From Fusobacteria bacterium ZRK30 (GTDB lineage: Bacteria; Fusobacteriota; Fusobacteriia; Fusobacteriales; Fusobacteriaceae): DNA of 64,000 nt. Positions 1,767 to 48,000 of the stretch are shown here, piece by piece. The stretch lies in NCBI GenBank assembly GCA_024628785.1, contig CP102405.1:1674001-1738000 (forward strand). The letters are read 5' to 3'. The position numbers were made by a program, and so were the translations under genes. The number at the start of each line of letters is the position of its first letter. Within the stretch, counting starts at the first letter, position 1. The notes beneath the pieces were generated by a model that did no database searches, had not been told where the DNA came from, and worked only from the letters and a program-made list of their open reading frames with translations.

Positions 1767-2336
1767 TTATGATGTCCATATTTCTTTAAGGGTTTCAAAT
1801 ATATTTTGTTTTTCTTCTTTCTTCTTTTCTGCTTTTTCTTTCTCTTTCTGTAATTTTTTATATTCTTTAAGAGCTTTTCTTCTATCCTTTTTATATTCTT
1901 CCAACGGACCTAAATATATGGTTTTTTCAGTATCTATATTCAATCCATCAAGAAAAAGGTTTACTTTTGTTATAAATATGTATTTTTTGAATTTTACAGG
2001 AGGGACATCTACGATTCTTGTCCCGTCAACTTTAACCTTACCAAAATATATCTCCATACCATCATCTGTAACATTAGGAACAGTTTCATCTAATCTAACC
2101 ACTTGACTTTTTAAAGGGATATTCCAGTTATACTCTACCCCTCCAGAATGACTCTTAATGACAATATTGTCTTTTGAAATAGGTAAATAGTATTCTTTAT
2201 CCTTATATATTACTTTAATTTTATCACTTAATACCTCAACATGTTTTGATCTGTAAGCTTTGCCATCTATTACTTCATACTCATTAGGTGCTATAACTAC
2301 ATATGATAAAGAAGTCTTTTCATCATATTTATCCAT
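1767..2336 (-). CDS. Putative immunity lipoprotein, C-terminal part (out of frame)
   Basis: This is a 189-codon open frame beginning MDKYDEKTSLSYVV. It has a predicted mostly beta N-terminal two thirds and a highly charged Lys/Glu coiled-coil tail (EEYKKDRRKALKEYKKLQ). It overlaps the lipoprotein signal ORF at 2297-2491 in another frame. Removing one TA unit from the (TA)8 tract at 2347-2363 would fuse the two into one 240-residue lipoprotein. The GGAGG before its own ATG is only about 4 bases away, too close for comfortable independent initiation. Its position directly after a detached toxin module suggests an immunity role, which is inference. I do not recognise the domain. Confidence 0.6.
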   Translation of the reverse strand: MDKYDEKTSLSYVVIAPNEYEVIDGKAYRSKHVEVLSDKIKVIYKDKEYYLPISKDNIVIKSHSGGVEYNWNIPLKSQVVRLDETVPNVTDDGMEIYFGKVKVDGTRIVDVPPVKFKKYIFITKVNLFLDGLNIDTEKTIYLGPLEEYKKDRRKALKEYKKLQKEKEKAEKKKEEKQNIFETLKEIWTS

Positions 2337-2491
2337 GATCCCTCCGTATATATATATATATATTTCTCATATTCTTTATTTGGAGTATAACTAATTGGCT
2401 GGTCATCGAAAGAATATTCTTTGAATGTGGTACTGCATCCCGATAAAATTAGTATTAAAAATATTAAGACTGATTTTAATATTTTTTTCAT
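2297..2491 (-). CDS. Putative immunity lipoprotein, N-terminal part (frameshifted)
   Basis: The 64-codon ORF opens with a classic lipoprotein signal (SVLIFLILILSGCSTT, lipidated Cys19) and then reads SFDDQPISYTPNKEYEK into a Tyr-Ile run encoded by (TA)8. After that it is in the wrong frame and ends 14 codons on. Its ATG directly abuts the TAA of the toxin module (TAAATG), so the two are translationally coupled. That is the usual toxin-immunity arrangement. As read, the product would be truncated; a one-unit change in the TA tract would restore a 240-residue lipoprotein. A sequencing error in the tract cannot be excluded. Confidence 0.65.
   Translation of the reverse strand: MKKILKSVLIFLILILSGCSTTFKEYSFDDQPISYTPNKEYEKYIYIYTEGSWINMMKRLLYHM
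2347..2363. repeat. (TA)8 tract inside the lipoprotein gene
   Basis: A 17-base alternating TA run lies exactly where the signal-bearing ORF and the downstream ORF change frame. Dinucleotide tracts of this kind are known substrates for slipped-strand mispairing. Loss of one unit joins the frames; as sequenced they are not joined. Confidence 0.8.
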
Positions 2492-3925
2492 TTATTTTCC
2501 TCCTTTTTCTATAAATTCTTTTATTTTTCCCGAAATATGTTTTGCCTTCTCTCCTTTTCCCCGCTTAATACTGTTTGGTCTTTCATATTTTATTTCTCCA
2601 TTTTTATCAGTAGTTTTTACCATATCAAAGTGATAGTTTTTCATTGGATGATATTTATCTCCTCTCGTTGTCACCTCATTCCCTGTAATATATTTTAAGA
2701 TATCGCCTTCATTAAACAGAACATTTACATGTTCTTCTCCTACTATATCTTCTATATCTTTTAGATCTTTTTCTGTTACTGCACTTCCTGCAAACACCAG
2801 TTCACCTACATTTTCCCTTATCAGTTTTTTTCCTTCTTCGGTTTTATTCAATGTCTTTAGTACTTGAGTTAACTTTATTGTCCCTTGACTATGTGCCATC
2901 ATACCATTTAATAATGATGGTTGTTCTTTAATAATATCTGTTAAATCTTTTGCATTAATATTACTCCCCATCAATATCCCTACTTTTCCTACTGCAGATT
3001 CTATAACATCCGCTATAATACCATTTGTCGGGTTATGTATAGATAACATATGGATAGTTTCACCATTTGTTATCGCATCTAAATTTTCTTCTGAAATAGT
3101 CCCGTTAAATGTACCTTCTACTGCCCCTTCCAGTGTGTTTCCTATCCCATTTAATGATACCCTTATATCAGGATTGTTTTTTTTGATCTCTTCATATTCT
3201 TCCTTTGTTATTACTTGAGTTACTACTTTTAGCTGTGCTACCCCATCTTTGTATAATGATTCCCCATTTTCATCTTTGACAGCTTCAACCATATTGACAT
3301 ACAATTTTTCTTGACCTCTTACAATAGCATCAGATTCTCCTAAGATACCTCCATTTGTTGCTTTTGTTGGAACAATCCCTAAGGTTTCATTGAATAATTT
3401 TTTATCAACTATTTTTTCAATTTCGCCATATGTCTTTTTAAACCCTTCTTCCATCTCTTCTTCCAGATTGTATTTCCCACCTGTTGCAGTGTCTAAATCT
3501 TTTCCAAGGGTTTTCCCATGTTCTCCCATTATATCTTGTACTTCACTCCACTCTCTTACCTCAGAATCATACTCAGCATTTATACTATCCACAGTGACAT
3601 CTTTTGTTACCTCTTGCCCCTTACTTTCATCTCTGTTGATATCAGGGTTTTGTTCCTTTCCTCCTACTATTACTTTTCCATCTCCTATAGTTGCCCGTGT
3701 GGTTTGTTCCCTATCTAGAGCACCATAATTTCCTCCTACACTTCCTTCATATTCGCTTCCACCTTCTATTTTGTTTCTTGATAAATTACCATTTATCCCT
3801 ATATCTATCCCCTTATCTTTATCTTTTATATCTGTAAAAGTTAAACTTCCAGTATCAAGAGTAGTATTTTCTCCTTTGGAGGCTTTAGATAATTTATACC
3901 TTTTATTAGAACTCCCAACTATCAT
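2492..3925 (-). CDS. Orphan CdiA-type C-terminal toxin module
   Basis: A 477-codon module without signal peptide or TPS domain. Its residues from about 20 to 90 (NTTLDTGSLTFTDIKDKDKG to TIGDGKVIVGG) are nearly identical to the segment just before the variable tip of the large exoprotein upstream. After that point the two diverge completely. The unique part carries IHNPTNGIIADVIES and NGMMAHSQGTIKL; the latter resembles a lipase nucleophile elbow (H-S-x-G), so an alpha/beta-hydrolase toxin acting on lipids is possible. This matches the 'orphan' cassettes of contact-dependent inhibition loci, which are silent until recombined onto the main gene. The start at 3925 forms an ATGA overlap with an upstream remnant. 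The cassette reading is strong; the enzyme activity is a weak inference. Confidence 0.75.
   Translation of the reverse strand: MIVGSSNKRYKLSKASKGENTTLDTGSLTFTDIKDKDKGIDIGINGNLSRNKIEGGSEYEGSVGGNYGALDREQTTRATIGDGKVIVGGKEQNPDINRDESKGQEVTKDVTVDSINAEYDSEVREWSEVQDIMGEHGKTLGKDLDTATGGKYNLEEEMEEGFKKTYGEIEKIVDKKLFNETLGIVPTKATNGGILGESDAIVRGQEKLYVNMVEAVKDENGESLYKDGVAQLKVVTQVITKEEYEEIKKNNPDIRVSLNGIGNTLEGAVEGTFNGTISEENLDAITNGETIHMLSIHNPTNGIIADVIESAVGKVGILMGSNINAKDLTDIIKEQPSLLNGMMAHSQGTIKLTQVLKTLNKTEEGKKLIRENVGELVFAGSAVTEKDLKDIEDIVGEEHVNVLFNEGDILKYITGNEVTTRGDKYHPMKNYHFDMVKTTDKNGEIKYERPNSIKRGKGEKAKHISGKIKEFIEKGGK
3659..3869. repeat. 211-bp direct repeat, orphan-module copy
   Basis: It matches 5034-5244 base for base with a single mismatch. 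It marks the shared conserved segment of the orphan toxin module and the main exoprotein gene, and homology ends sharply at both borders. It is a ready site for homologous recombination that would delete 1,375 bp and swap the toxin tip. Confidence 0.95.
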
Positions 3926-4104: not shown

Positions 4105-4620
4105 TTAAACACTTCCCGCCAAACCAACCATCATTACTAATCCAAACGTAAATAAAATTAATACTGACACAAGACTAGGCATAATAATAATTTTAAGCAA
4201 TTTCTCTTTCTTAAAACGATAAAAACAATATATATTTATGAAATAAAAGGCAATATAAAGTAAGATACATAATACAATGTATTGCTTTACCCACCCTATC
4301 AAAATAAAAGCATACACTTGAAGCAATGTATATATATATATATATATATCGATTTTACTAATGGTATTATCAATTTTTTTCATCGTAAAACCATAAAGTA
4401 CCATTCCTAATAATGAAGCTCCTATAAAAATAGTGTTAAAATTCGACTCATAAAATTCATAAAAAAAAGTTCCAATACTAAATATCATAGCAATTTCTAT
4501 GCAAAATATAAATGCTGGGTATAGTATAATTTCTTTAACTATCATTGTTTTTATAAAATTACATATATATAATAATATTAATAAAAATAGTATTAAAAAT
4601 GTTAGTGCTATAAAAATCAT
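4105..4620 (-). CDS. Membrane protein, putative immunity protein of the large exoprotein
   Basis: A 171-residue, very hydrophobic protein with about five membrane segments: residues 1-22, a stretch around 30-55 that may be two, about 60-80, about 95-120, and about 145-170. Its ATG lies two bases after the stop of the 2,375-codon exoprotein gene, the position occupied by cdiI in contact-dependent inhibition loci. The family is not recognised. A membrane location would fit protection against a toxin that acts at or crosses the inner membrane. A 21-base TA tract encodes IDIYIYIYT in the middle of the protein, so slippage would truncate it; as sequenced the frame is intact. The immunity role is inferred from position only. 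Confidence 0.6.
   Translation of the reverse strand: MIFIALTFLILFLLILLYICNFIKTMIVKEIILYPAFIFCIEIAMIFSIGTFFYEFYESNFNTIFIGASLLGMVLYGFTMKKIDNTISKIDIYIYIYTLLQVYAFILIGWVKQYIVLCILLYIAFYFINIYCFYRFKKEKLLKIIIMPSLVSVLILFTFGLVMMVGLAGSV
4329..4349. repeat. (TA)10 tract inside the membrane immunity candidate
   Basis: A 21-base alternating TA run lies inside the 171-codon gene and is read as Tyr-Ile repeats. A change of one unit would shift the frame. The same kind of tract sits in the other immunity candidate at 2347-2363. Confidence 0.8.
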
Positions 4621-4622
4621 TT

Positions 4623-7600
4623 TTATTCCCCCTCAAAATATTCATCTTTATCCTTTAGATTTTCTTTTGCTGCGTCTACTTGTGGTTTTAAAACTAAATT
4701 TACATGTGTATCAAAAGTTTGCTTACTGATTGTTTCCCTTTCTTCCCTAGTGGTAGGATCGTCTCTTCCTGTTCCATACTTTATCCAAAGCTTAACATCG
4801 CTTGTACTTCCTTTTGTATGTAAATATATATCTCTTGGTCCGTTTATATTTACTTCTCCTCCCGCTATATTATATGTTCCATCATTTATCCCATCTTTTA
4901 TCACCTTTCCAGTTTTTTTATTAAACACTACTTCCTCCCCTTTTGTATTCATATATTTTTCATTTGGAAGATTTAGATTTACTTTTAATTTACCATTTGT
5001 ATCTCTTTCTATATTATGAAATATAGAGGCACCTCCTCCTACTATTACTTTTCCATCTCCTATAGTTGCCCGTGTGGTTTGTTCCCTATCTAGAGCACCA
5101 TAATTTCCTCCTACACTTCCTTCATATTCGCTTCCACCTTCTATTTTGTTTCTTGATAAATTACCATTTATCCCTATATCCATCCCCTTATCTTTATCTT
5201 TTATATCTGTAAAAGTTAAACTTCCAGTATCAAGAGTAGTATTTCCTCCTCCTAATAACCCTCCTACTATATTTGTATTACCATTTATTGTTATCTCTGA
5301 GTTTTCAATCCCTATAATAGAACTTTGATTATTAACCCATTCTTTCTCATAATCACTATAGTTAACTCCTATTCCTCCTGAGAGGGAGCTGTCTCCTCCT
5401 CCACTTGCATTTATATTTATTCCAATATTTTTAGATTTTCCAGTATCTTGCACACTTTCTATCACTAGATTATCTATATCTATTTCCACCTCATTCCCTA
5501 TGATATTTCCACCTTTTATTGTAAGGTCTTCTCCTGAAATATCTACCTTGTTTCCTGCTATAAATTCTGAATTAGAATGTATAGTTTCGCTATTTGATCC
5601 TTTAGATCCTCCTATACCTCCTGATATTTGACCAGTCATGAAATTGAGTTCTCCACTTATATTCATTGATGAAGATTCTCCTTTGTTTGTGCTTTCCCCG
5701 CTAATAATATTGATATTTTCTCCAGAGTCGAGACTTATATCATTTCCTGCTGTTACCTTAGCACCCTCAAAGTTCATATTACCATTATCAGTTTTTAAAG
5801 TTACATCATTATTTGCTGTTATTGTGCTTCCTACTCTATTTGTACTGTCTTGACTACTCTCATCTTTTGATAGTTCTATCTTTCCATATATCCCAGCACT
5901 AGTTCCTTCACTTGATGGTCCATTTATTATATTGTTTATAGCATTCAACCCACCTTCATTTCCTGCTAGAGATTCATTTAAATCTTTTCCACTTATTAGA
6001 CTACTTGCGACATTAACTACTTCTGGTAGATCTTTTATCCCTTTTGTAGCATTGACCATAGAGTCAAAAGTATCTTTTATTCCAGATAGATCTACTCCTA
6101 CACTTAGTTTTATTTCTCCTTTTTCATTTTTCTCACTACTGCTATGAATCTCATCTCTACCAATAATATTAATCTCGTTTACTGCCTCGATATCTACATT
6201 ATTTCCAACTATATCACTAGCCTCAACATTAGTATTATTTCCACTAATTATTTTAATATCTCCATCACTTGATATATTACTACCAACAACTTTAGTATCC
6301 AAGCTTGTATTTTTGTTTTTTTCTATACTAGTACTTATTCCCACCTCGATACTTGGTCCATCTACACTTCCAAATAACGAAGTTCCATATTTTGTTTTCT
6401 GTTTTTGTTTTTTAGTTATATCATCGACTGCCATAATATTTACATTATTTTCACTATCTAATAAAATATCTCCTCCACTTTCTATATCAGATCCTAAGAT
6501 ATTTATATTTCCATTTTTAGACTGAATTTCTAAATTCCCAACAGAACCAATATTAGACCCTACGTTTGTATACTTAGTTTCAACTTCCTTTTGAGATCTT
6601 CCGCTAAGTCCCATAAATCCACTCTTCACACTCTGTTTAGAATCTATACTTCCTTTCATAGCAGAACTAATATTCACGTTGTTTACTGCCCCTATCGAGA
6701 TATCTCCCTCACTGAGGACATTGCTTCCTGCCACATTAACATTGTTTCCTGATACTATCAGCGTGTCACTTCCAGAGACCAGATTACTGCTGTTTAGGTT
6801 TTCATTATATTTAATCTCTGTTGTAGTTTTCCCCCTGCCCCATGATTTTTCCCTTGTTTTCTGCTTCTCATAATAGTCAGAATCAATAGTTGCTGTGATA
6901 TTTATATCATTTCCTGCTTCTAGAGAAAGATTTTTTTCTGCTGCTATATCCGATCCGATTACATCGATATTTTTTTTAGCAGAAAGAGAAACATTTTCTC
7001 CACTTACTAAACTACCTTTATTTCTTACACTTTCCTTGATGGTATAGTTTTTACTGCCACCTTTCTTTTCATAGTTGTATATCTCATCGGAGCCGATTAC
7101 GACCTCATTTCCTTCTAATTCAACATTCCTCTTACCTTTTATCTCGCTTCCTATATTTATTATCTTATCTCCACTGATTTTTATATTGTTCCCTGCCTCT
7201 ATCACCCCTGTGTTTTCAAGACTTGATCTAATCTTTTGATCTATATTTGTATTTACCCTTTTAGTGTTTATATTACTGATTTTCCCATTAACTGACTCTA
7301 AGATCAAATCATTTTTAGCCTTGATAGCAGCACCAATATTATCTATATCATTAGCAGATACTATACTTATATTGTTTCCTACTATCTTTGCTATTCCCCC
7401 GCCTTTTATGGTTTTATTCAAAAGTGAATCTATATCTATCTTAAGATCTCCATCTGATTTTATTACCCCTGTATTATCTAATTCCAGGGCTGTTATTTCC
7501 ATCTTATCCCCGGCAGAAAGACCAGTCCGGTTACTACCTTCCAATGAAGCCAGTGTCTCTTTAGAGAGATAGACTTTAGGGACCAAAACATCCACACCAT

Positions 7601-10600
7601 TAACTTTTTTTTCTACATACCATACTATATCCTCTTTTAAGTTGTTTATTTGTGCCTTAGTCAGAGCAACTCCTAATGACAGTTCTAAATCATCCATAGC
7701 TACTACAGAGTTATCAAATAGCATTTTCATCTGATCCTTTTCATTTGTTGCACCATTTAGATATCTGGCTCCTGTGTTTTCAAGGATCGCTCTGTTGACT
7801 ACCCTTGTTTCATAAAAAGCGTCTCCCAAAAGTCTGATATCTTTTTCAGGATTATATCCTATCTTCCCAAAGAAATAATCTGAACCAAGGTAATAACTCA
7901 TATCTACAAACTTAACATTTGTTTCTATCAAATAGCTAAACCCAGGTTTATTACTGCTCTTTAGGTCATTTACAACAAACATCCCTTTATCTCCACTTGG
8001 AATTTTTATATAATCTTCTGTATCGACAGTATCCAAAAGACTACCTTCCCCTCCTACGGTTCCCTTTATCTTCTCATTTTCCAAGGCACTATTGATTTCT
8101 ACTTTATTATTATTTAATACAACATTACCGATATTAGTGTTGTTGCTATTTACTATATTTTTATCATTTGACAATACTCCATTCCCTATTTTTGTTGCTG
8201 TTATACTCATATTACCACCAGCAGAAATTTTACTTGCCTTATTTCCACCTACTTTTTGGATAGCATCACTTTCTGCTAAGATATATCCCTTATCTCTATT
8301 TCCGTTATAAACTTTTCCATTCAAATAATATGTATCATGATCTAGCTGATACATAGCTGCCCCGTGTAATTCATAATCTTTTTTCCAATATAGCTTTATT
8401 TTTACATCTTTAGTCATATTTTCATTATACAGATTTCTAGCTTTAATATTGATATTGTTATTTGCTAAGATATTCCCTTCTCTATTAATAATGTCATCTG
8501 TTATCTCTAGTTTTATATTGTTCCCTGAGGAAATATATGACAAATAACTTACATAATTGCTTATTATCTTGTCTGTTTTGTATAACGATAACCCTCTAAA
8601 CCAAGTCCAACTTCCCTTGGAAGATAAGTTATTTTCATATAGTTGATTCATAGTTATATTCATTTGATTTTCAATAGGGTTTTTATCTATCTGACTTTGA
8701 TCTATATTTGTTACTAACCCTGACTCCTTCTCTACACTATGAGTTCCTGTTACCTCTCCTATATTTTCCAAACTTCCAGCTTTTATCTCTATATCTCCTA
8801 TTGCTTCTATATCTCCTACAATATTAGACACCTTTCCACTTGCTACTATCTTCATGTCTCCACCAGAGTACAGTTCGCCACGATTATTTTTTACATTACC
8901 ACTAGAGGAAACTACCATGTCTCCACCAGAATATATGAGCATCCCTTCATTATTTAGGATACTTCTACCACTTAATGTTAGGTTGTTTCCACTGGCTATT
9001 TGTCCACTATTTACAATATTTAGACCCTTTAATTTTATATTTCCTTTTCCTGTCAAAAATCCATAATTTCTTATATCTCCACTCGTTACGCTTATACTGC
9101 TACTTCCACTACCCAGACTCATCTCACTATTATTTACCATACTACTACCGATAGTTAGTGTAGAATTTTGTGCACCACCTAGTAACCCATTATTAGTAAA
9201 GTTTTTTCCTTCTACTTTTAATGAGTTTCCTATTATTATTTTATCTTTATTATTAACAAAGTTATTTGCTGCAGATATCTCAATTATTCCTAACCCTTCT
9301 ATTAATCCATTATTTATAAAATTTGTAGTGTTTATATCTATCTTTTTATTCCCTACATACCTTCCATCAACTGTAAGTTCCCCTGTATTTACTATTAAAT
9401 CTCCTTGAGACAAGATCTCTCCATTTTGATTTTCTATCTTGTCTGCCCTTATACTTAATTTCGAGCTGTCCTTTCCTGTTGTTATCTTCCCTCCTTTATT
9501 GTCTAAGTTTCCTTCATTAAGAATCTCTATCTCTACTCCTGATATTGTTCCCTTATTTTGATTTAGTTCTTTTAAAAAGATACTGCCATCACTATATATA
9601 TTTCCTGTATTCACAGTGTTATTTATTGTAATGTTGTCCCTTCCAGATAAGATCCCTTGATTTTTCAAACTACCGACCACTTCAATATCCCTTCCACTTA
9701 CGATAATACCTATATCACTATTTAATAGTTCCCCCCCTATATAAATATCATTTTGACTAGAGATTGTCCCTGTATTTGTAGTATTTTCGCTTTGGATCTT
9801 ACCTACTGTTGTTATTTTTCCATTGTTATTCTCCATTGTTTTATTGACTAACAAGTCTTTTGTTGTAGAAACAATACCACTATTTTTTAAGTTGTCTAGG
9901 GATATTTGCCCCTCACTAAGGATCTCTCCACCACTTTTATTTTCAAGGAGACTATCTACTTTAATACTTTTCTCTCCAGAGATTACTCCGCTATTTGTTG
10001 CATTTTTTGTCCAGATATCCCCCTCACTTACAAGGATACCTTCCTTATTATTAACTATACCTTCTCCTGCTTTAACTCCGGTTATTCCAGAAATAATCCC
10101 GCTGTTTTCTATAAGGTTAGATCTTATTTCTTTACTAGTTACAATTTTCGCTCCTTTTTTATTAACTAATCCTTCTGTAATATCTATACTTTCTACAGCT
10201 GAAATTATTCCTTCATTGTCTATGTTTTTCGAGGCAATAGTCCCCTCAGTAACGATGGACCCATCTACTTTATTGATTAGATTATTTTTTATATCTATAT
10301 TATTCTTAGCTGAAATAGTACCTTCATTATCTATGTTTTTCGAATCGATAGTCCCTTCAGTAACGATAGAACCCTCTACTTTATTTAGTAGATTATTTTC
10401 TATATCTATATTATTTTTAGCTGAAATAGTACCTTCATTATCTATGTTTTTCGAAGCTATAGTCCCTTCTGCAATGATAGTTCCATCTCCATTATTAACT
10501 AATCCTTCTGCAATATCTATACTTTTTACAGCTGAAATGGTTCCTTTATTATCTATGTTTTTTAAAGAAATTTTCTCACCACTAACCAAAATACCTTCTT

Positions 10601-11750
10601 TTTCATTAGTAAGATTGCCTAAGATATTAATAGATTTTGTTGTAACTATCTCACCTTGATTCTTTAAAGTATTGCTGCTTACTTTTAATGTTTCGCTTGA
10701 TATCTCTCCATTGTTTTCAAGGGTGTTTCCAAGGATATCGGCAGATTTATTGCTCCCAATCTTTCCATTATTTTTGAGATAGTTAGATCTTATCTCTATC
10801 CCCTCTTCCCCTACCAATTTTTCTTGAATAATAGTATTTTTAGCTGTTATCTCGATATTCTTTTTAGCCTGGGCATCTCTTAGGACAAGATCACCATTTA
10901 CATTAATCCTAAAATCTTCTACTCCTGCTAACACCTCTCCTTGACTATTTACTCCTACTCCATCTTCTGTACTTTGAATAAATATTCTTCCAGCGTATAG
11001 AGATCCTAAAGCACGCCCATCTAAAGCTACCTTAGGTTTTTTTCCGTATCCTCCTTCTTTCTTACTGACCTTCCCTGTATCGTAGTTATACTTATTTCTC
11101 CCTAAAACAACCCTTAGTTCATCCCCCCCATAGACTGCTCCATTAAGTTCTGCTGTTCTTGAGATAATATCTACCATCCTTACATTTCTACCATCGATAC
11201 CTTCACTTCCAATTACTACTGATCCATTATCTATATCAAATTCTTTTAAGTTTCCAAGGTCATCAATTACAGATCTTCCTGTAGTTAATGTTACCCTTGG
11301 AGTATTAATAAATCCTGCTCCATTTACATATATTCCATTTGGATTAGCCAAAATATAGTCAGCTGCTCCTCCTACGATCTCTGTATACCCCTCTAGCTTA
11401 CTTCTATTTATTCCTGTTACTTCTGTCAAAATTGTATTGGCTTCCCTGCCTAAGTTAGAGTTTCCTTGGATAAGCCCGCCTAATTGTGTTCTAATGTTTT
11501 CCTCCTTACTATTATTTATGAGTACTCCCTTGTTCTCTACATTGTATTCCTTAAAATAGTTGTGAGATAACCCATTTTTGTTGGGGTTATTAATGTTTAC
11601 AATGGGAACCCCGTTAGGAGCGTTTTCCACACCTGCCTGTTGATTTTTACCCTGATCTATTACAATGCCAGCAGCCATTATTGGTTGTCCAAATATACTA
11701 AAAAAGATGTATAAGTAAATTAAACTTTTCTGAAAATATTTTACTTTCAT
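4623..11750 (-). CDS. Two-partner secretion exoprotein, filamentous-haemagglutinin/CdiA-like
   Basis: A giant secreted adhesin/toxin-delivery protein of 2,375 residues, exported across the outer membrane by the TpsB porin encoded just upstream. A signal peptide (to about residue 26, GQPIMAA) leads into the TPS domain (residues about 27-290) with GVPIVNINNPNKNGLSHN and the hallmark ILANPNGIYVNGAGFINT. A long beta-helical filament of haemagglutinin repeats follows, including exact 37-residue tandem units, then glycine-rich segments. The last 140 residues are unrelated to the orphan module's tip and contain GTYNIAGGEVNI and IKYGTGRDDPTTREERE; they are probably the toxic or effector tip. No VENN pretoxin motif was seen. 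A contact-dependent inhibition role is supported by the adjacent putative immunity gene and the orphan cassette, but a plain adhesin remains possible. Confidence 0.9.
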   Translation of the reverse strand: MKVKYFQKSLIYLYIFFSIFGQPIMAAGIVIDQGKNQQAGVENAPNGVPIVNINNPNKNGLSHNYFKEYNVENKGVLINNSKEENIRTQLGGLIQGNSNLGREANTILTEVTGINRSKLEGYTEIVGGAADYILANPNGIYVNGAGFINTPRVTLTTGRSVIDDLGNLKEFDIDNGSVVIGSEGIDGRNVRMVDIISRTAELNGAVYGGDELRVVLGRNKYNYDTGKVSKKEGGYGKKPKVALDGRALGSLYAGRIFIQSTEDGVGVNSQGEVLAGVEDFRINVNGDLVLRDAQAKKNIEITAKNTIIQEKLVGEEGIEIRSNYLKNNGKIGSNKSADILGNTLENNGEISSETLKVSSNTLKNQGEIVTTKSINILGNLTNEKEGILVSGEKISLKNIDNKGTISAVKSIDIAEGLVNNGDGTIIAEGTIASKNIDNEGTISAKNNIDIENNLLNKVEGSIVTEGTIDSKNIDNEGTISAKNNIDIKNNLINKVDGSIVTEGTIASKNIDNEGIISAVESIDITEGLVNKKGAKIVTSKEIRSNLIENSGIISGITGVKAGEGIVNNKEGILVSEGDIWTKNATNSGVISGEKSIKVDSLLENKSGGEILSEGQISLDNLKNSGIVSTTKDLLVNKTMENNNGKITTVGKIQSENTTNTGTISSQNDIYIGGELLNSDIGIIVSGRDIEVVGSLKNQGILSGRDNITINNTVNTGNIYSDGSIFLKELNQNKGTISGVEIEILNEGNLDNKGGKITTGKDSSKLSIRADKIENQNGEILSQGDLIVNTGELTVDGRYVGNKKIDINTTNFINNGLIEGLGIIEISAANNFVNNKDKIIIGNSLKVEGKNFTNNGLLGGAQNSTLTIGSSMVNNSEMSLGSGSSSISVTSGDIRNYGFLTGKGNIKLKGLNIVNSGQIASGNNLTLSGRSILNNEGMLIYSGGDMVVSSSGNVKNNRGELYSGGDMKIVASGKVSNIVGDIEAIGDIEIKAGSLENIGEVTGTHSVEKESGLVTNIDQSQIDKNPIENQMNITMNQLYENNLSSKGSWTWFRGLSLYKTDKIISNYVSYLSYISSGNNIKLEITDDIINREGNILANNNINIKARNLYNENMTKDVKIKLYWKKDYELHGAAMYQLDHDTYYLNGKVYNGNRDKGYILAESDAIQKVGGNKASKISAGGNMSITATKIGNGVLSNDKNIVNSNNTNIGNVVLNNNKVEINSALENEKIKGTVGGEGSLLDTVDTEDYIKIPSGDKGMFVVNDLKSSNKPGFSYLIETNVKFVDMSYYLGSDYFFGKIGYNPEKDIRLLGDAFYETRVVNRAILENTGARYLNGATNEKDQMKMLFDNSVVAMDDLELSLGVALTKAQINNLKEDIVWYVEKKVNGVDVLVPKVYLSKETLASLEGSNRTGLSAGDKMEITALELDNTGVIKSDGDLKIDIDSLLNKTIKGGGIAKIVGNNISIVSANDIDNIGAAIKAKNDLILESVNGKISNINTKRVNTNIDQKIRSSLENTGVIEAGNNIKISGDKIINIGSEIKGKRNVELEGNEVVIGSDEIYNYEKKGGSKNYTIKESVRNKGSLVSGENVSLSAKKNIDVIGSDIAAEKNLSLEAGNDINITATIDSDYYEKQKTREKSWGRGKTTTEIKYNENLNSSNLVSGSDTLIVSGNNVNVAGSNVLSEGDISIGAVNNVNISSAMKGSIDSKQSVKSGFMGLSGRSQKEVETKYTNVGSNIGSVGNLEIQSKNGNINILGSDIESGGDILLDSENNVNIMAVDDITKKQKQKTKYGTSLFGSVDGPSIEVGISTSIEKNKNTSLDTKVVGSNISSDGDIKIISGNNTNVEASDIVGNNVDIEAVNEINIIGRDEIHSSSEKNEKGEIKLSVGVDLSGIKDTFDSMVNATKGIKDLPEVVNVASSLISGKDLNESLAGNEGGLNAINNIINGPSSEGTSAGIYGKIELSKDESSQDSTNRVGSTITANNDVTLKTDNGNMNFEGAKVTAGNDISLDSGENINIISGESTNKGESSSMNISGELNFMTGQISGGIGGSKGSNSETIHSNSEFIAGNKVDISGEDLTIKGGNIIGNEVEIDIDNLVIESVQDTGKSKNIGININASGGGDSSLSGGIGVNYSDYEKEWVNNQSSIIGIENSEITINGNTNIVGGLLGGGNTTLDTGSLTFTDIKDKDKGMDIGINGNLSRNKIEGGSEYEGSVGGNYGALDREQTTRATIGDGKVIVGGGASIFHNIERDTNGKLKVNLNLPNEKYMNTKGEEVVFNKKTGKVIKDGINDGTYNIAGGEVNINGPRDIYLHTKGSTSDVKLWIKYGTGRDDPTTREERETISKQTFDTHVNLVLKPQVDAAKENLKDKDEYFEGE
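5034..5244. repeat. 211-bp direct repeat, main-gene copy
   Basis: It is identical to 3659-3869 except for one base and codes for the conserved segment just before the variable tip of the exoprotein. The tip begins directly after it (VIVGG then GASIFHN here, KEQNPDI in the orphan). Confidence 0.95.
10198..10560. repeat. 111-bp tandem repeats in the exoprotein gene
   Basis: Units of 111 bp (37 residues) begin at about 10198, 10309, 10420 and 10531. They encode variations of EGTIASKNIDNEGTISAKNN. They belong to the beta-helix filament and could vary in number by recombination. The central two are the most alike. Confidence 0.85.
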
Positions 11751-13892: not shown

Positions 13893-13985
13893 ATGATAGC
13901 CTTTAAGCAATCAGAAAAGGAGGCTCAGGATCTAAGCCAGAGAACTAAGGAAGCTTTTATAAAAATAAAAGCCCTAATATATTAA
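13893..13985 (+). pseudogene. Recombinase-like C-terminal remnant
   Basis: Thirty codons reading AFKQSEKEAQDLSQRTKEAF end with a stop, directly before a terminator. The phrase LSQRTKEAF recalls the helix after the catalytic domain of serine recombinases (SERTKEGL). It is far too short to be functional. Low certainty. Confidence 0.3.
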
Positions 13986-14027
13986 AAAATGAGGAGTGAT
14001 AATTCTTTAATTATCACTCCTCATTTT
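13986..14027 (+). terminator. Strong hairpin terminator
   Basis: AAAATGAGGAGTGATAATT pairs with AATTATCACTCCTCATTTT around a 4-base loop, with A and T flanks on both sides. It could work in both directions. Confidence 0.8.
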
Positions 14028-14102
14028 ATAAAAGCTTTACGTTAATTTTTTTTAGAATTTAAACAAAACTTGCGACAGTCCCAATTATAAATTTAATGTT
14101 TT

Positions 14103-14145
14103 AAAAAAAAAGATCAAAATCATAGAAGATTTTGATCTTTTTTTC
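14103..14145 (-). terminator. Terminator downstream of pflA
   Basis: AAAGATCAAAATC / GATTTTGATCTTT with runs of T on both strands. It lies 35 bases beyond the pflA stop and is probably bidirectional. Confidence 0.8.
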
Positions 14146-46792: not shown

Positions 46793-46836
46793 AAAAAATA
46801 AAGGAAGGTATTTACTATCTCCCTTTATTTTTATTT
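46793..46836. terminator. Bidirectional terminator
   Basis: AAATAAAGG / CCTTTATTT hairpin with A and T flanks between convergent genes. Confidence 0.75.
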
Positions 46837-48000
46837 AATCATGATTTAAAGCTTCTACGACCTCTAACTTCGCCCCTCTGTATGCTGGAAATATACTGGA
46901 CAAAAATATAATTATAACATTCGCTCCTATTATTAGAAGCACCTCTTTAAATTTTATTTCCACAGGAATTTTACTTAGGTTATAAATACTGGTTATTTCA
47001 TTTATATTATAATTTTTTAGATACCATAATATTATACCTGAAACACTTAATCCAATAACTATCCCTAGTATCCCTAAAAATAAGCCTTCTATAATAAATA
47101 TTCTCATTATATTTTTACCGGAAAACCCCATAGATCTCATTATTCCTATATCTTTTATTTTTTCTTTGACAGACATACTCAATATTACCCAGATTAAAAA
47201 TCCCGCTATTATAACTATCAGGGAAAATACAACAACCATTCCACTTTTCTGTAGAGATAACGATGCCAATAAATTTCTGTTTAGATCTTTCCATGTTCTG
47301 GTAGAAAGACCTGTTTGTTCTGGGATCTGTAATGCTGTTTTATCTGCACTGTATATATCGTCTAAAAACACCTCTAAATCTGTTACTGAATCTCCTCCAT
47401 AGGTTAAGATTTGAACTGCTCTTAGAGGACTATTATGATAGTTTTATCGTATTCCTCATAACCTGATTGGTATACTCCAACTATGGTCAGAGTTACCTGA
47501 ATATTTTTAGAAGTAACTACGCTTACCTCATCCCCTAATTCTGCACCTAAGTCGTCAAAAAGTTTCTTTCCCATGAGAAATTCTGTGGGAGTTTTAGCAT
47601 CCATAGTTCCGTAAACTACTTTTTCATTCAAACCCATGGTTTTTCTGGCTTCATGAAAATCCAGACCATTTATCCTTACCCCTGTTACATATGACCCGTG
47701 AGTTTGATTATATTTTAATATTCCCTGTTCTGTACTTTGAGGAATTACTCCTTTTACTCCCCTTATTTTTTCTATTTTTGATTGTAACTCCCTGTAATTT
47801 TCTATGGATTTTCCATTTTTTGTGACTATTATATGGGAAGTCATTGAAAAGATACTTTCCATCATACTTCTATCCAGCCCATTGGATATCCCAAGGGAAA
47901 CTATCAATACTGTGATTCCTATCGCTACCCCAAACATTGCTACTACACTCTGTCTTTTTCTTTCAAAAATATGTTTTTTTGCTATAAAAAATTCTATCAT
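46835..48000 (-). pseudogene. ABC permease (LolC/MacB-like), split by frameshift
   Basis: One gene is read in two frames. The N-terminal half begins IEFFIAKKHIFERKRQSVVA and has the first membrane segment (FGVAIGITVLIVSLG) plus the extracytoplasmic domain (MTSHIIVTKNG, LGAELGDEVSVV). It breaks after KTIIIV by a one-base shift at about 47425-47440. The other frame continues PLRAVQILTYGGDSVTDLEV and has the three C-terminal segments (FSLIVIIAGFLIWVILSMSV, and so on) and the end PAYRGAKLEVVEAL. Both halves together give the full FtsX/LolE-type length. It is either a fresh pseudogene or a sequencing error. No partner ATPase lies next to it. Confidence 0.8.

Follow-up and report, generated by a model that had tools for sequence, protein, structure and literature searches.

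Long TA tracts in the two candidate immunity genes of a CDI-type locus of Fusobacteria bacterium ZRK30

Introduction

Why should a gene that probably protects a cell against a sibling's toxin carry, in the middle of its reading frame, a simple repeat of slippage-prone length? The question is raised by a locus of Fusobacteria bacterium ZRK30, within a window of 64,000 nucleotides (the whole stretch of DNA analysed; assembly GCA_024628785.1, contig CP102405.1, positions 1,674,001 to 1,738,000 of the forward strand). The gene directly behind a large exoprotein contains (TA)10, and a lipoprotein gene 2 kb away contains (TA)8. The original prediction, made from the letters of the sequence, proposed that two neighbouring immunity candidates with the same type of tract reflect selection for switchable protection or surface variation, and not chance. 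Here we evaluate the architecture of the locus, the assignment of the two genes, the rarity of such tracts, and the readings that could account for them.

Results

A two-partner secretion island of the contact-dependent inhibition type

The genes run in the order ShlB/POTRA transporter, exoprotein, 171-aa ORF directly behind it, 477-aa ORF and lipoprotein (Table 1). Both the TPS secretion domain and the haemagglutinin repeats of the TpsA exoprotein score over the Pfam cut-off, and the TPS domain has its single occurrence in the whole genome here. Among 8 genomes of the genus, haemagglutinin-repeat proteins were found in this one and in G004 only. The sister genomes G007 and G006 have the same flanking neighbours with other genes or none between them, and the island is absent from this site there. 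At this site G007 (L060, G007:C2:1284000-1301500) has a 649-aa glycoside-hydrolase-like gene and a gene for a 553-aa membrane protein, both named by reading. Within the tpsA gene, four repeats with 111-nt spacing (window 10159-10616) are 70–77% like the first, and a dispersed intergenic repeat at around 13951-14104, whose core matches both strands, recurs many times in the other genomes of this genus. Judged from sequence, the TpsA, the TpsB and the tip-immunity layout place the locus among CDI-type two-partner secretion islands.

Table 1. Features of the locus and TA tracts of at least seven units in the genome (window coordinates unless a contig is given).
Feature	Position	Strand	Details
TpsB/CdiB-like outer-membrane transporter, 547 aa	11984..13627	-	ShlB PF03865 E 1.9e-89; POTRA PF08479, PF17287
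TpsA/CdiA-like exoprotein, 2375 aa	4623..11750	-	PF05860 E 7.8e-48, PF13332 E 2.2e-48 (Pfam)
217-nt direct repeat, tpsA copy just before the tip	5034..5250	.	99% identical to 3659-3875
CT1, variable C-terminal region, about the last 137 residues of TpsA, probable toxin tip	4623..5033	-	past the shared 217-nt repeat
171-aa polytopic membrane protein, probable immunity protein cognate to the TpsA tip	4105..4620	-	22.5% G+C
(TA)10+T tract	4329..4349	.	TATATATATATATATATATAT, 21 nt; in frame, IYIYIY = residues 92-97 of the 171-aa ORF
217-nt direct repeat, copy heading the orphan module	3659..3875	.	99% identical to 5034-5250
CT2, displaced (orphan) toxin-tip fragment, 477-aa ORF, AHSQGT motif	2492..3925	-	without TPS domain
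(TA)8+T tract, 17 nt	2347..2363	.	lipoprotein frame breaks here; run scan
Lipoprotein immunity gene of the orphan module	1767..2491	-	frame changes at the tract: parts 2297-2491 and 1767-2336
(TA)≥7 place	C2:371779		7 units; fusA/rpsG spacer
(TA)≥7 place, longest in genome	C2:1361286 (L017:2986-3028)		21 units, 43 nt; intergenic, DMT-type permease / peptide-transporter-like genes
(TA)≥7 place	C2:1857248		7 units; inside MscS-type channel gene
(TA)≥7 places in this locus	window 2347, window 4329		8 units and 10 units; both intragenic

The 99% identity of the 217-nt repeat marks the downstream module as displaced, in the tip-immunity layout described for orphan CDI modules (PMC4927057; PMC3150448). 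Neither CT1 nor CT2 matched a Pfam or NCBIfam family over the cut-off, or a PDB sequence of note. A recognised toxin or pretoxin domain, which is common in CDI but not obligatory, is absent from the tip. The predicted structure of CT2 was unusable (pLDDT 38.7). Its HSQG motif is the sole hint of a lipase-like nature, which we do not claim for CT2.

Both candidate immunity genes lie where immunity genes are expected

CT1 has relatives in 8 of 97 other Fusobacteriota genomes, 13 places in all, and at every one the next gene is small and encodes a membrane or membrane-anchored protein; by eye, seven of these products look like polytopic membrane proteins and the other six have one N-terminal hydrophobic segment. 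These genes are not sequence relatives of the 171-aa protein, since a search of those genomes gave no homologue of it; in position and type, the 171-aa gene appears to match them. The lipoprotein family is located directly behind HSQG/FSQG-type tips at five of the eight places assessed in other genomes. L046 and L048 (plus strand read) are outside those eight; L047 and L071 have no tip in front, and L045 starts near the contig start. Synteny thus upholds both immunity assignments of the original prediction, and points to a polymorphic tip with its cognate immunity gene behind TpsA.

The 171-aa gene is intact across its tract

The 171-aa ORF (4620 to 4105 on the minus strand) contains no internal stop, and sequence and run scan confirm the 21-nt tract within its intact frame, as predicted, coordinates included. 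In the other two registers a stop follows 9 or 38 residues past the tract, and the out-of-register product would lack the last helices of the predicted structure, a low-confidence model with six helices (mean pLDDT 56.3). The protein matched no family in Pfam or NCBIfam. At E≤0.001, homologues were found neither in 60 relatives nor in 97 other Fusobacteriota genomes, and a search of IMG/VR and plasmids likewise returned none; sub-threshold matches (E 0.026–0.082) numbered four in other genomes and one elsewhere in this genome. Surface variation through the 171-aa protein, one of the two roles first suggested, is unlikely because the protein looks polytopic and is probably located in the inner membrane.

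The lipoprotein gene of the silent module is broken at its 17-nt tract, as had been proposed. In another species of the genus, a MAG contig (L065, the same as G004:C469) has an intact 185-aa homologue (L065:1898-2455) with a 16-nt TA run at the same spot, in frame. Identity to this homologue over the lipoprotein fragment aligned is only about 40%, and CT2 is 77% identical to the L065 tip in the CT part. The shared tract position is suggestive only, because the peptide YIYIY is conserved and codon usage alone then gives a pure TA run with a probability of about 0.15.

Long intragenic TA tracts are rare in the genome

The genome (3,596,527 bases, 5 contigs) was scanned for TA runs, with coding status taken from ORFs, for some from Pfam, and genes without a Pfam match named by reading their translations. 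Runs of at least seven units occur at five places and of at least six units at 13. Three of the five are intragenic, and the immunity-candidate pair, 2 kb apart, leads these three in length. No other TA tract inside a gene of this genome is as long as the neighbouring tracts of the original prediction, of which the one at 4329-4349 keeps the frame and the one at 2347-2363 does not. Exactly six units occur at eight places, four of them outside an ORF or at its very start and four inside ORFs (a CbiQ-like protein, a TMEM164-family protein and two without a family).

A first-order model built from the window predicts, for this genome size, about 0.5 runs of (TA)≥7 and 0.001 of (TA)≥10, and no 21-nt run appeared when the 171-aa gene was simulated as 20,000 Markov copies. 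On these models the tract at 4329-4349 exceeds chance at the level of composition. Given the peptide IYIYIY, however, codon usage alone (ATA for 52% of Ile, TAT for 82% of Tyr) generates the pure ATA/TAT run with a probability of about 0.08, and in a comparison of 92 ORFs none was more AT-rich than this gene. The earlier verdict of "not chance" thus stands for composition and is weakened once the peptide is given.

TA tracts in other genes and genomes

The third intragenic tract splits an MscS-type gene (G000:C2:1857248; L018:2448-3068 and 2947-3675) at (TA)7. In the sister genome G007 the gene is intact, has (TA)5 and encodes a protein 97% identical. This pair indicates that in this lineage TA tracts grow and disrupt reading frames, and that genes unrelated to immunity slip too. 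The expectation that long TA runs would set the immunity genes apart from unrelated genes therefore holds only in part, given this broken gene and the four ORFs with (TA)6. The same partial answer came from the relatives, which contain at least 34 (TA)≥7 places, all read. Among the places listed, at least seven are inside Pfam-family genes, all 14 or 15 nt long (in an EAL/GGDEF protein, an acetyltransferase, an autotransporter, a sugar transferase, a glycosyltransferase, an M20 peptidase and a PASTA protein), and the long runs, which reach 38 nt, are intergenic. In G009 a bacterial sugar transferase gene (L093:989-2466) is split at a 15-nt TA run; sugar transferases are a classical kind of phase-variation gene. 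The giant TpsA loci of G011 contain no TA run of five or more units in the stretches read.

The known immunity genes of this genus have tracts of 21, 17 and 16 nt (three of three, two of them homologous). By comparison, 20 immunity-like genes from other genera of the phylum, with 13–26% G+C, have TA runs of just 4–9 nt; the lipoprotein relatives L045, L046 and L048 stand outside this set. Neither AT-richness nor an immunity role is thus sufficient to produce such a tract. AT-richness alone was accordingly rejected as a full explanation, as was a general habit of the phylum's immunity genes (0 of 20 above 9 nt).

Discussion

The reading to which we assign an even chance is that of a CdiBAI-type locus whose active immunity gene contains a slippage-prone tract as a weak point, not a proven switch. 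TpsB would export TpsA, the tip CT1 would be the toxin, and the 171-residue protein behind it the cognate immunity protein. The present tip may have come in across the shared 217-nt stretch, pushing the older CT2-lipoprotein pair downstream. The TA tracts in both immunity genes are of a length at which slipped-strand mispairing could add or remove units, and two of the three registers would truncate the 171-residue protein soon past the tract. Where CT1 is deployed, out-of-frame cells would lose protection and be inhibited by their siblings; we propose that purifying selection of this kind keeps the gene in frame. In E. coli, cells lacking CDI immunity are eliminated by siblings, according to excerpts of PMC4927057. 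If CT2 is no longer deployed in the population, the orphan lipoprotein would go unchecked and could have drifted out of frame. We infer toxin and immunity activities, slippage in cells and sibling killing from the layout and the repeats. Two observations fit poorly with a mere liability: tracts in three of three immunity genes known from the genus, against none above 9 nt in 20 from other genera, would be unexpected, and the lipoprotein tract of L065 is kept in frame in another species.

The tracts could instead be selected contingency loci, with TA slippage toggling immunity at a high rate and the population always mixing differently protected cells. In variants of this reading, slippage would hedge bets on a costly membrane immunity, or the orphan gene would be an archive re-opened when neighbours deploy CT2. 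We regard the idea as rather unlikely. In its favour, the genome's longest TA tracts within genes are in two neighbouring candidate immunity genes, one of which is on and the other off, and the tracts in all three immunity genes known from the genus add weight. An in-frame simple repeat is present, and its length is right for a switch, since (TA)9-11 is reported as phase-variable for Haemophilus influenzae hifA/hifB in the part of PMC2651432 available; repeat unit and unit number are the same and similar, respectively. That tract is located between promoter elements and sets transcription, whereas the tracts here are in candidate immunity reading frames and their switching is unproven. A population that turned off protection against a tip it deploys would be expected to harm itself, and the same kind of break occurs in the MscS-type gene. 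Peptide conservation together with codon usage predicts the tract of the lipoprotein homologue with a probability of about 0.15. The 171-aa gene gave no homologue in the genomes, IMG/VR and plasmids searched, and no length variant of it was seen in a set with one genome per species. A genus-wide form, in which coding TA slippage would mix cells protected and unprotected against current and displaced tips, we consider doubtful; that kin recognition would then switch stochastically at the immunity gene and not at the toxin is a corollary for which we have similarly little confidence. Of the original interpretation, the paired tracts, the immunity synteny and the recurrence in the L065 lipoprotein were borne out, and selection for switching gained no clear support.

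A weak point of this kind must also be distinguished from a mere accident of composition, namely an alternation of Ile and Tyr in a gene that is AT-rich and recently acquired, encoded by the preferred codons ATA and TAT and lengthened by neutral slippage of no consequence so far. The AT content and codon shares of the gene favour this, as do the 14–15 nt TA runs in ordinary genes of the relatives, but the 20 immunity-like genes of 13–26% G+C reach only 9 nt, composition models never produced 21 nt, and two such tracts falling by chance in neighbouring genes of one locus are, by post hoc arithmetic, an event of roughly 0.3% for three intragenic tracts. We judge the accident improbable. More improbable still, in our estimate, is an assembly or sequencing error, by which the lipoprotein and MscS-type genes would really be intact and the tract length in the 171-aa gene uncertain. 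Two of the three genes with an internal (TA)≥7 tract have a broken frame, and error stays a rival because an ABC-permease-like gene in the same window (46835-48000) is broken in two frames near 47420 with no repeat there; that break is a pseudogene or a sequence error. The tract would exist regardless, however, and L065 and G007 have independent tracts at the same places.

The locus resembles CdiBAI islands with orphan cdiA-CT/cdiI modules in its TpsB, its variable-tip TpsA and the small immunity-like gene behind it, in the displaced tip and immunity gene that share a conserved stretch with tpsA, and in being absent from the site in sister genomes. It differs in that its tip and immunity families are outside Pfam and NCBIfam and in the long TA tracts of both candidate immunity genes. 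Meningococcal tpsA/tpsC cassettes also have tip cassettes with intervening immunity ORFs (IORFs) behind tpsA, many likewise broken by stops or a frameshift; they belong to a different phylum, and the sections of PMC3848433 available do not describe TA tracts. ZRK30 may be a marine fusobacterium akin to Psychrilyobacter; in the part of a study of that genus available, filamentous haemagglutinin is reported only in the host-associated strain (PMC10580919). A full-text literature search, within the passages it returned, gave no description of phase-variable or slippage-switched immunity in contact-dependent inhibition or polymorphic toxin systems, and a search aimed at TA repeats likewise turned up no paper.

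Taken together, we conclude that the locus is ordinary in kind and that its feature is unusual and testable. If the tracts do not switch, they offer a clean natural contrast, in which the same weak point is intact where immunity is needed and broken where it is not. If they do switch, self-protection in contact-dependent killing would be heritably turned on and off in a setting where siblings normally punish its loss.
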